From Erysipelotrichaceae bacterium (GTDB lineage: Bacteria; Bacillota_I; Bacilli_A; Erysipelotrichales; Erysipelotrichaceae): a stretch of DNA of 45,965 nt. The translations under genes were made by a program, and so were the position numbers. A model generated the notes under the pieces. It searched no databases and was not told where the DNA came from. It saw only the letters and a program-made list of their open reading frames with translations. The DNA lies in contig JAFWEP010000014.1 in NCBI GenBank assembly GCA_017512885.1, forward strand, positions 1-45,965, read 5' to 3'. Each line of letters starts with the position of its first letter. Position 1 is the first letter of the stretch. Positions 2,317-4,399 of this stretch are shown in pieces.

Positions 2317-2332
2317 GGTGTACCCTGTATCC

Positions 2333-2429
2333 TCCCAAAGAAAAAAACCCTTCAGAAGGGCTGTAAATGCGTCTAGTCGTTCTTCCGGAGACGGTCCAGG
2401 ACATCACTGATGAGGAAGGTCGTTTCGAT
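2333..2429 (-). pseudogene. Degenerate duplicate of the 3' end of coaD with its terminator
   Basis: Bases 2333-2401 are a direct repeat of 3332-3405: the same CCTCCCAAAGAAAAAA tail, a terminator, and GCGTCTAGTCGTTCTT. Translated on the minus strand the copy reads IETTFLIS joined in frame to DVLDRLRKND and a stop (TAG at 2373-2375). In the real coaD these two stretches (IETVFLVS and DVLDRLRKND) are separated by about 34 residues, so the copy has lost that segment and everything upstream. The terminator stem has diverged while still pairing (CCCTT/AAGGG). It lies in the 358-bp gap between the YefM-like and DUF3800 genes and marks a duplication or recombination border. Confidence 0.8.
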
Positions 2430-2521: not shown

Positions 2522-2550
2522 TTGAAAAAGCATTCGACTCATGTTATCAT
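2522..2550 (+). promoter_or_regulatory. Strong promoter of the DUF3800 leader RNA
   Basis: TTGAAA (2522-2527), a 17-bp spacer, then TATCAT (2545-2550) with an extended -10 TGT in front. Transcription should begin near 2557, about 89 nt before the DUF3800 start codon. This is one of the clearest promoters in the window. Confidence 0.75.
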
Positions 2551-2556
2551 GATGCC

Positions 2557-2632
2557 ACGATATTATGGGCTGGTCGTAAGACCCGGGTCCAACTCACGTG
2601 GCGGGAAGACTTCCCGCCATTCTTAATTCTTG
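2557..2632 (+). ncRNA. Structured leader RNA upstream of the DUF3800 gene
   Basis: The predicted transcript holds two hairpins. The first is GGTC-GTAA-GACC (2572-2583) with a GNRA-type tetraloop, running into the self-complementary GACCCGGGTC (2580-2589). The second is an 8-bp G+C-rich stem GGCGGGAA/TTCCCGCC (2600-2607 with 2611-2618), extendable by U-A and G-U pairs, with a 3-nt loop and followed by TTCTTAATTCTT, resembling an imperfect intrinsic terminator. No reading frame of note is present. Families of conserved RNAs named DUF3800-I to -XI have been described next to DUF3800 genes; whether this is one of them needs a covariance search. It could be a separate small RNA, an attenuator or a cis-regulator. 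Confidence 0.6.
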
Positions 2633-2645
2633 ATCGATATGTCTC

Positions 2646-3323
2646 ATGAAAGAACTGAGTATTTTTGTTGATGAAAGCGGTGACCTCGGACCATTCAGCA
2701 ATCATTCACCGTTTTACATTGTTTCCATGGTGTTCCATGATCAACTGTACTCTATAAGCAGAGAGATAGCGTATCTCGATCGCGAACTCGAGATCCTTGG
2801 TCTGGGAGGACACGTCATACATACCGAACCTCTGATACGAAGAGAAGAAGATTACAAAGACCTGTCTCCCAACGAAAGAAGAGCCATCTTCACGAAACTC
2901 TTCTTTTTCCTGATGAAATGCCCGGTTCGATATAAAGCTTTCCTTTTTCGCAAGGATGAATATCATGATCTGTTTAAACTTCAGGGAAGGATCGCTCGGG
3001 AAATATCCCGGTTTATTCGACAGAATCTGGTCTGTTTCCAGACCTACGACCGGGTCATTCTCTACTACGATAACGGCCAGCATGAACTGAATCGGATCCT
3101 GAATACTGTCCTTGCAGCGGAACTGTCACAATACGATGTGCGAAAAGTACTTCCGATCGATTATAAACTTTTTCAGACCGCTGATCTGATCTGTACACTG
3201 ACTCTATTGGAACAAAAATGTACGGATCACCGTTTGTCACGGTCCGAGCTGTTGCTCTTTCACAATGAAAGATCACTCAGGAAGGACTTTTTGAAACCAT
3301 TAAAAAGAAAAGAATGGATTTAG
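2646..3323 (+). CDS. DUF3800 domain protein (predicted RNase H-like fold)
   Basis: A 225-residue protein. The N-terminus ELSIFVDESGDLGPFSNHS carries the DESGD signature of DUF3800; VILYYDNGQHELNRIL near residue 140 and DYKLFQTADLICTLTLLE near residue 180 supply the further conserved acidic residues (D-Q-ADL). The pattern of acidic residues at strand ends is compatible with an RNase H-like metal-dependent nuclease, but catalysis is not proven for the family. DUF3800 genes are common in mobile and defence-rich regions. No Shine-Dalgarno precedes the ATG (GATCGATATGTCTC), so translation may depend on the leader RNA. The gene sits between a coaD-tail remnant and the true coaD, indicating acquisition. 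Product assignment to the family is firm, role unknown. Confidence 0.85.
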   Translation: MKELSIFVDESGDLGPFSNHSPFYIVSMVFHDQLYSISREIAYLDRELEILGLGGHVIHTEPLIRREEDYKDLSPNERRAIFTKLFFFLMKCPVRYKAFLFRKDEYHDLFKLQGRIAREISRFIRQNLVCFQTYDRVILYYDNGQHELNRILNTVLAAELSQYDVRKVLPIDYKLFQTADLICTLTLLEQKCTDHRLSRSELLLFHNERSLRKDFLKPLKRKEWI

Positions 3324-3331
3324 TATCGGTC

Positions 3332-3366
3332 TCCTCCCAAAGAAAAAAGCCCCTGAGAGGGCTTAA
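3332..3366 (-). terminator. coaD terminator
   Basis: On the minus strand AAGCCC and GGGCTT pair (about 3350-3365) and are followed by TTTTTTCTTTGGGAGG. The hairpin lies 10 nt after the coaD stop. The same flank is duplicated at 2333-2365. It could also terminate the converging DUF3800 transcript, although that direction lacks a T-run. Confidence 0.75.
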
Positions 3367-3374
3367 GAATGCGT

Positions 3375-3860
3375 CTAGTCGTTCTTTCTGAGACGGTCCA
3401 GGACGTCTTCGTGGATCGCTGAGGGGATGAAGGAAGAGATGTCTCCGCCGTACTGAGCGACTTCCTTGGCAATGGAGGAACTCAGGAAAGAGTATTCGGG
3501 CTTGCTGACGAGGAAGACCGTTTCGATGTTCGGGTTGACCCGCATGTTGGAGGTAGCCAGGGACAGTTCGTATTCATAGTCGACGACGGCCCGGATGCCT
3601 CTTACCAGTGCCTGACATTCCAGTTTCCTGGCCAGATCGATGGTCAGGCCCTGACCGATGACGACATGGACATTGGGCATGTCTTTGACACACTTTTCGA
3701 TCAGATGCTTACGTTCTTCTTCCGAGAACTCACATTTCTTGTTGGGGTTCTTCATGATGGCGACATAAAGGATGTCGTACATTTTGGCGGCACGTTCGAT
3801 GATATCCAGATGTCCATAAGTGATCGGGTCGAAAGTACCCGGGTACATAGCGATTCTCAC
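3375..3860 (-). CDS. coaD: Phosphopantetheine adenylyltransferase
   Basis: A 161-residue enzyme joining ATP and 4'-phosphopantetheine to dephospho-CoA, the fourth step of CoA synthesis. RIAMYPGTFDPITYGHLDII holds the nucleotidyltransferase TxGH-type motif (TYGH), ALVRGIRAVVDYEYE follows in the middle and SFLSSSIAKEVAQYGGDIS holds the SSS-x-K region. Length is standard. I chose the GTG at 3858-3860 because AAGGAGAA lies upstream and the family begins right there; the in-frame ATG further upstream lies inside rsmD. The start overlaps the rsmD stop by 4 bp (GTGA). Its 3' end is partially duplicated at 2373-2429. Confidence 0.97.
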   Translation of the reverse strand: MRIAMYPGTFDPITYGHLDIIERAAKMYDILYVAIMKNPNKKCEFSEEERKHLIEKCVKDMPNVHVVIGQGLTIDLARKLECQALVRGIRAVVDYEYELSLATSNMRVNPNIETVFLVSKPEYSFLSSSIAKEVAQYGGDISSFIPSAIHEDVLDRLRKND

Positions 3861-4399
3861 GATCGGTTCTCCTTGTAATAACATAAGCGGCTGACTCCAT
3901 ACTTCTTCTGTTTTACCAGTACAAAGGGTCCAACAGTTTCCTCTACCGGAGAAGCAGAGCTCTCCTCGTAGATCAGGGTACCCTCAGCCTTTAAGATACC
4001 CTTTTTGTGAATTAATTCTAATAGTTTTTGTTTATGGATATATGCATATGGCGGATCCAGGAAGATAAGGTCGAAAGAAGCCTCTGTTTTGGCTAAAAAG
4101 GCTTCTGCCGAGAGGTCAGTGACCTCTGCTTCTTCCCTGGCCTTCGTCAGATTCTCCTTAATGACCTTTACGGCTTTGGGAGAATGATCGTTGAAGACGA
4201 CCGGGCAGGCCCCTCTCGAGAGAGCTTCGATGCCGACGGCACCGGAACCGGCGAAGAGGTCGAGGAAGGAGAGATCAGAGATGTTGCCTAAGGAAGAGAA
4301 CAAAGCTTCCTTGAGGGCATCCTTGGAAGGACGGGTATCCTCCCCTTCCGGAGCATTCAGACGTAAGCCCTTGTGCTTACCGGAGATCACTCGCAGCAT
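3857..4399 (-). CDS. rsmD: 16S rRNA (guanine966-N2)-methyltransferase RsmD
   Basis: A 180-residue SAM-dependent methyltransferase acting on G966 of 16S rRNA. MLRVISGKHKGLRLNAPEG is the family opening, TRPSKDALKEALFSSL follows, FLDLFAGSGAVGIEALSRG is the SAM motif, and FDLIFLDPPYA near residue 115 is the catalytic D/N-PP-Y. Start ATG lies 23 bp inside the upstream ftsW and the stop overlaps coaD, so the three genes are translated as a coupled set. rsmD-coaD adjacency is very common in Bacillota. Confidence 0.96.
   Translation of the reverse strand: MLRVISGKHKGLRLNAPEGEDTRPSKDALKEALFSSLGNISDLSFLDLFAGSGAVGIEALSRGACPVVFNDHSPKAVKVIKENLTKAREEAEVTDLSAEAFLAKTEASFDLIFLDPPYAYIHKQKLLELIHKKGILKAEGTLIYEESSASPVEETVGPFVLVKQKKYGVSRLCYYKENRS

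Follow-up and report, generated by a model that had tools for sequence, protein, structure and literature searches.

Does the small structured RNA that precedes a DUF3800 gene serve that gene alone, or does it have a role that reaches beyond it? To our knowledge, DUF3800 RNAs have been recorded for years beside DUF3800 genes with no function found, and we know of none for RF02975, which Rfam lists as an sRNA. The window analysed here, a stretch of 45,965 nucleotides from an Erysipelotrichaceae bacterium (assembly GCA_017512885.1, contig JAFWEP010000014.1), holds one such pair. An initial annotation had described it as a protein-RNA module, with a promoter, a DUF3800-type RNA and a DUF3800 gene in a row.

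A covariance search against Rfam narrowed the RNA precisely to DUF3800-XI (Table 1). Its score is well above the gathering cut-off of 37.8 bits and a PF12686 gene lies directly downstream, the gap between the RNA and the ORF being 31 nt. The RNA is present in a single copy, at the locus and in the whole genome. Weak Rfam matches below the cut-off, such as ES239, were disregarded. Folding of the 2556-2632 segment gave −29.8 kcal/mol (z −3.4), a value equalled by 0 of 200 shuffles, in agreement with the GNRA hairpin and terminator-like hairpin proposed at the outset. The loop of hairpin 1 is a GUAA tetraloop in the window copy, and this hairpin is the part common to the phage RNAs and to the 3′ end of cow-rumen-3, both described below. 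Hairpin 2 had been read as an 8-bp GC-rich stem with a U-rich tail; the hairpin and a T-rich tail are present, but the computed stem has 10 bp. In relatives a classical terminator stands at the same position, for instance GTGGGTAAGACACCCACTTTTTTT. Hairpin 2 and its T tail look like an intrinsic terminator, and because of this likeness we take it as probable that the RNA is transcribed as a short, separate molecule and that the gene is reached by read-through. The promoter that had been proposed, with its extended −10, is found upstream of the RNA; three promoter-like sites were counted in the stretch, against 0.6 +/− 0.8 in shuffles, a count that is only suggestive.

Table 1. Coordinates of the DUF3800-XI module and of its borders in the window.
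Feature	Position	Strand	Evidence or remarks
coaD 3′ end and terminator, diverged copy, upstream side of the module	2327-2405		86% identity over 80 columns with 3329-3407
Putative sigma-70-like promoter of the RNA, TTGAAA-N17-TATCAT, extended −10	2522-2550	+	10/12 consensus positions, TG ahead of the −10
DUF3800-XI RNA	2566-2615	+	RF02975, 58.2 bits over model positions 1-48
Hairpin 1: outer stem UGGGCU/GGUCCA (G.U and U.G wobbles conserved), inner stem variable, loop of GNRA type	2566-2591	+	
Hairpin 2: 10-bp G+C-rich stem, terminator-like, followed by a T-rich tail (2621-2631)	2598-2620	+	Fold and sequence pattern
DUF3800 protein, 225 aa, predicted RNase H-like fold	2646-3323	+	PF12686, E 1.2e-7, 32.9 bits, cut-off 21
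coaD 3′ end and terminator, downstream side of the module	3329-3407		coaD gene at 3375-3884, − strand

The module is flanked by the two coaD 3′ end/terminator copies, of which the upstream one is decayed; the module's arrival at this site seems to have come with a duplication. Annotated neighbours in the window are coaD, ParDE-like genes and a macro-domain gene (251-970). Just upstream of the module, at 1231-1795 and 1838-2287, come a Phd/YefM-ParE pair and another Phd-like gene that stands alone, and the stretch next to coaD looks like a small toxin-antitoxin gene island. Two loci have the DUF3800 gene flanked by the RNA at either end, with both RNAs pointing the same way in L102:1302-2145 and towards each other in L140:5892-6754. 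A mobile-element reading, considered because of these two loci and of the position of the module between coaD tails, was rejected, as consistent ends were not found.

Covariation was seen in both hairpins when 22 RNAs were aligned: 10 of the 17 pairs change on both sides and 93.9% of the cells are paired, whereas pairing falls to 33-54% when the partners are shifted by 1 to 3 columns. Homologues found through the protein (n = 86, a few of them from viral contigs found likewise) were not picked by their RNA sequence. Among these, the outer stem of hairpin 1 keeps a G.U in 82 of 86 and a U.G in 84 of 86, rather than Watson-Crick pairs, and most loops are of the GNRA type. Wobbles kept so constantly suggest that a protein specifically recognises the RNA. 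The self-complementary GACCCGGGTC, pointed out in the initial annotation, does occur in the window sequence, but it is made of the 3′ side of hairpin 1 plus the bulge and is not conserved among the 86 homologues; since the bulge varies (CA in 39, CG in 30, CT in 5), a conserved dimer site was rejected. One subgroup of RNAs (L114, L118, L120, L122, L127, L132 and L140) has an additional hairpin between hairpin 1 and the terminator.

The DUF3800 protein had been likened to RNase H, and its structural model agrees with this. An AlphaFold2 model computed from 61 homologues reached a pLDDT of 93.8, and the closest solved folds are RNase HII (Foldseek E 1e-4; VIA Z 9.0, rmsd 3.6 over 159 residues), so that the protein models confidently as an RNase H fold nearest RNase HII. 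Residues D9, E10, D142 and D180 are conserved in the homologue alignment; they are proposed as catalytic, and in the predicted model they fit, together with the strand/helix order, the acidic active-site pattern of the fold. A published model of another DUF3800 is also an RNase H fold (PMC10910872). At the sequence level Pfam gives DUF3800, with no RNase HII match in NCBIfam or among PDB sequences; NCBIfam and PADLOC returned no matching model at all for the protein. Against named plasmids and phages, the protein had a single distant match on a plasmid (32%) and a single partial one in a phage. Entries for Hsp70, integrases and Argonaute also came up when folds were compared; they were set aside as reflecting the general RNase H-like fold or as lower matches. 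ToxN-type folds are absent from the fold-search lists shown, although absence from such a list is not proof. The start codons of the homologues are ATG (49), TTG (23) and GTG (5). The lack of a Shine-Dalgarno sequence before the ATG holds for the window copy, but as a family property it is ruled out, 64 of 80 homologues having a core of at least 4 nt.

How tightly are the two partners linked? Scanning bacterial genomes with the protein alignment yielded 80 loci (Lachnospiraceae, Spirochaetes, Fibrobacter, Flexilinea and others). With the RNA model, the RNA was found directly upstream of the gene, on the same strand, in 80/80 of these protein-selected loci, one of them cut by a contig end; homologous loci have a single RNA unit upstream of the gene. 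The initial annotation was right in seeing a protein-RNA module, for which a link with defence is plausible. The converse count was made on 100 RNA loci drawn from two bacterial groups, here called the order and the second family: 33 adjoin an intact DUF3800 gene, 24 a broken copy, and 43 none (one of the 43 at a contig end). Within the order, the RNA occurs in 33/316 genomes versus 16/311 for the protein, with many copies broken; the figures for the second family are 44/299 and 38/299. Genomes with the RNA and no protein match anywhere number 19 in the order and 10 in the second family. The linkage is one-sided: the protein is almost never without the RNA, the RNA is often without the protein.

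Among the apparent cases of protein without RNA that were followed, the fragments G780, G787 and G800 being left out of the count, the only real exception is G902:C30, where an intact gene has a degenerate hairpin 1 upstream and two further RNA copies exist in the genome. Four other candidates were dismissed: a weak RNA is present in G722 (32 bits) and in G009, the locus in G720:C142 is cut by a contig end with hairpin 2 still visible, and the G071 match reaches only 14 bits and lies beside a broken gene.

Orphan RNAs of bacteria keep their fold, with 95.0% of cells paired and 54 double changes in a set retrieved by the model, which favours well-kept copies; some are clearly decaying (L057, L060). 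An intact RNA next to a broken gene says little by itself and is partly to be expected: the gene offers a target some 12 times as large, and for this reason we rejected the combination as proof of a toxin-antitoxin pair. By eye, three orphan RNAs (L041, L057, L060) lie directly ahead of a Phd/YefM-toxin pair, two of these RNAs showing decay, and another (L061, 8014-8072) adjoins two DarT-/DarG-like (macro domain) genes.

These counts bear on the possibility that the RNA is a cis-acting leader, whose hairpin would either attenuate transcription or be a binding site through which the protein regulates the mRNA that encodes it. Its constant position, 17-75 nt ahead of the start codon of intact DUF3800 genes, and the terminator-like hairpin lying between promoter and gene are what one would expect of a leader. 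However, 43 of the 100 bacterial RNA loci have no downstream DUF3800 gene, nor has any of the phage tRNA-array copies described next, some of which have lost the U-tract and still keep hairpin 1. The attenuation proposed in the initial annotation is weakened by this, and we regard a cis-acting leader as very unlikely.

Copies of the RNA without DUF3800 were present in viral contigs with our initial exact pattern. Two looser patterns leave the inner stem free, its pairing being a built-in control; the matches listed represent 80 of 114 stretches. Among these matches, a same-strand tRNA lies within 1 kb in 23 of 35 loci with a paired inner stem and no DUF3800, compared to 1 of 46 with an unpaired inner stem, this one being the second L216 copy (Fisher p 1.7e-10, loci treated as independent). 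When loci were grouped by flanking similarity, 11 of 16 groups among the matches listed adjoin tRNAs. In all eight large tRNA-rich contigs examined whole, the RNA lies inside a tRNA array of its own strand or at its border. The RNAs from viral contigs that score above the Rfam cut-off are L168, L172, L207, L216, L217, L222, L294, L307, L314, L329, L330, L332, L335, L337, L342 and L353. In the phage set 95.4% of the cells are paired, with 25 double (compensatory) changes. Terminase, portal, T4-type topoisomerase, tail and virion genes identify several of the contigs as phages. No PF12686 was found in 23 RNA-bearing viral contigs searched whole, which may be fragments. Of 13 viral loci that do carry the protein, none is in a tRNA array, and a lone tRNA occurs in one. 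When the RNA was compared by BLAST with named phages and plasmids, all matches were at chance level.

Several phage RNAs abut the next tRNA and have lost the T tract, which suggests that they are processed together with the tRNAs. Other RNAs are found in these arrays. One array has two copies of the RNA (L216, 3258-3308 and 5486-5541); in another, which also holds ROOL, a drum RNA (Rfam RF02958) adjoins a DUF3800-XI-like hairpin (L215:2985-3134); and tmRNA-like genes lie near the RNA in L356 (3478-3775) and L220 (6578-6865), the tmRNA match of L220 scoring just below the cut-off. One could therefore consider an independent small RNA, for example one processed with phage tRNAs, with DUF3800 as the nuclease that processes or destroys it, the bacterial unit being an RNA and its maturase. 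An RNase H-fold nuclease, RNAs without protein in phages and bacteria, and a place within tRNA arrays next to ROOL, drum and tmRNA would all suit such a scheme. It leaves unexplained that the protein hardly ever occurs unless an RNA copy adjoins it, and that phages keep one partner only, and we judge it distinctly unlikely.

One branch of the phage RNAs has something else in place of hairpin 2, and its hairpin 1 corresponds to the 3′ end of the Rfam family cow-rumen-3 (RF03083). L328, in a phage tRNA array, scores 115.1 bits against cow-rumen-3 (cut-off 86.7), while L220, L224, L356, L304 and L310 score 39-71 bits, below the cut-off. The window RNA reaches 15.6 bits, over positions 104-139 of 141 only, and falls outside the family. 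The last ~36 positions of cow-rumen-3 correspond to hairpin 1 of DUF3800-XI; it differs in being a 141-nt RNA with extra upstream structure and, in the contigs seen, no DUF3800 gene. Since the hairpin matches both families, cow-rumen-3 and DUF3800-XI have a module in common, which joins two unexplained families. The larger RNA built around hairpin 1 in the cow-rumen-3-type phage branch may have a role of its own.

Known systems offer partial parallels. Type III toxin-antitoxin systems (ToxIN and others) have the same order of promoter, RNA, terminator and nuclease gene, the terminator between RNA and DUF3800 gene being recognised here by its sequence pattern. There too, phages carry RNA mimics without the toxin, and such a pseudo-ToxI defeats ToxIN (PMC3475682). 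In contrast to type III, there is here a single RNA instead of tandem repeats, hairpins instead of the ToxI pseudoknot, and a predicted RNase H fold instead of the ToxN fold; with its single RNA and apparently different fold, the DUF3800-XI locus is not a classical type III system. The RNA antitoxin RCd22 neutralises AbiF (Abi_2) in cis and in trans (PMC12373285), and is thus also a small structured RNA tied to a defence protein, toxic in the case of AbiF. That protein is unrelated to DUF3800, and neutralisation, shown for AbiF, is here our inference. Finally, RNA anti-CRISPRs (Racrs), which block CRISPR, are solitary copies of a defence RNA on phages; they mimic CRISPR repeats and not a DUF3800 RNA, and the Racr paper makes no mention of tRNA (PMC10651486).

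The Racrs demonstrate a decoy principle (PMC10651486) that could apply if DUF3800 were a ribonucleoprotein defence effector that needs the RNA as cofactor or scaffold, the phage copies being decoys that form inactive complexes. From the protein's side the two partners are nearly inseparable, RNase H-fold nucleases frequently work with RNA, and DUF3800 has been found with Cas12a2 and in V-A2 and VI-F loci (PMC10910872, PMC12669027). Yet many phage RNAs retain the full hairpin 1, often hairpin 2 too, as if they needed the function of the original, and a complete cofactor copy would supply defence, not block it. The intact fold of many bacterial orphans is a further difficulty. The cofactor role suggested in the initial annotation is thus weakened by phages that have the RNA without the protein, and we consider it unlikely.

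On balance, the evidence speaks for an RNA that inhibits in trans. Considering the parts of the locus, their one-sided linkage, the structure that orphan and phage RNAs retain, the place of the phage copies in tRNA arrays and the fold predicted for the protein, we infer that the RNA acts in trans to inhibit a toxic defence effector of RNase H fold, and that the phage copies are decoy antitoxins; we give this about an even chance. A short structured RNA would be made from its own promoter and end at the terminator-like hairpin, whereas the nuclease mRNA would arise when transcription now and then reads through, or from a separate weak promoter; its translation start is often a weak one, TTG or GTG being used in relatives. 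The RNA would bind the nuclease through hairpin 1, with its wobble-marked outer stem and GNRA loop, and hold it inactive. Phage infection or loss of the module would upset this balance, so that free enzyme would cut nucleic acid and growth would stop. Phages with the RNA alone, usually in tRNA arrays, would keep the enzyme inhibited, a form of RNA counter-defence. We favour inhibition because a purely activating RNA would not obviously help a phage, and because an inhibitor with its decoys explains together the one-sided linkage, the location in trans and the phage copies; it accounts for more of the facts than a cofactor, a cis leader or a processing substrate. Counting against it are the degenerate hairpin 1 of G902:C30, the decaying orphan RNAs and the larger target offered by the gene.

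An RNA family beside DUF3800 was already known. What is new here is the asymmetry of the linkage, the phage copies, the link with cow-rumen-3 and a confident RNase H-fold model; in the literature searched, we found neither the one-sided linkage nor the copies in phage tRNA arrays nor the tie to cow-rumen-3. One-sided linkage and phage copies turn the puzzle of the DUF3800 RNAs into a testable two-gene question. It is possible, somewhat short of an even chance in our estimation, that phage tRNA arrays carry decoy antitoxins, DUF3800-XI and cow-rumen-3 being counter-defence RNAs against a new class of RNA-restrained RNase H-fold toxins of gut and rumen bacteria. If true, an RNase H-fold toxin would join the RNA-neutralised systems, one unexplained RNA of phage tRNA arrays would be accounted for, and tRNA arrays would be a place where phages store RNA counter-defences.
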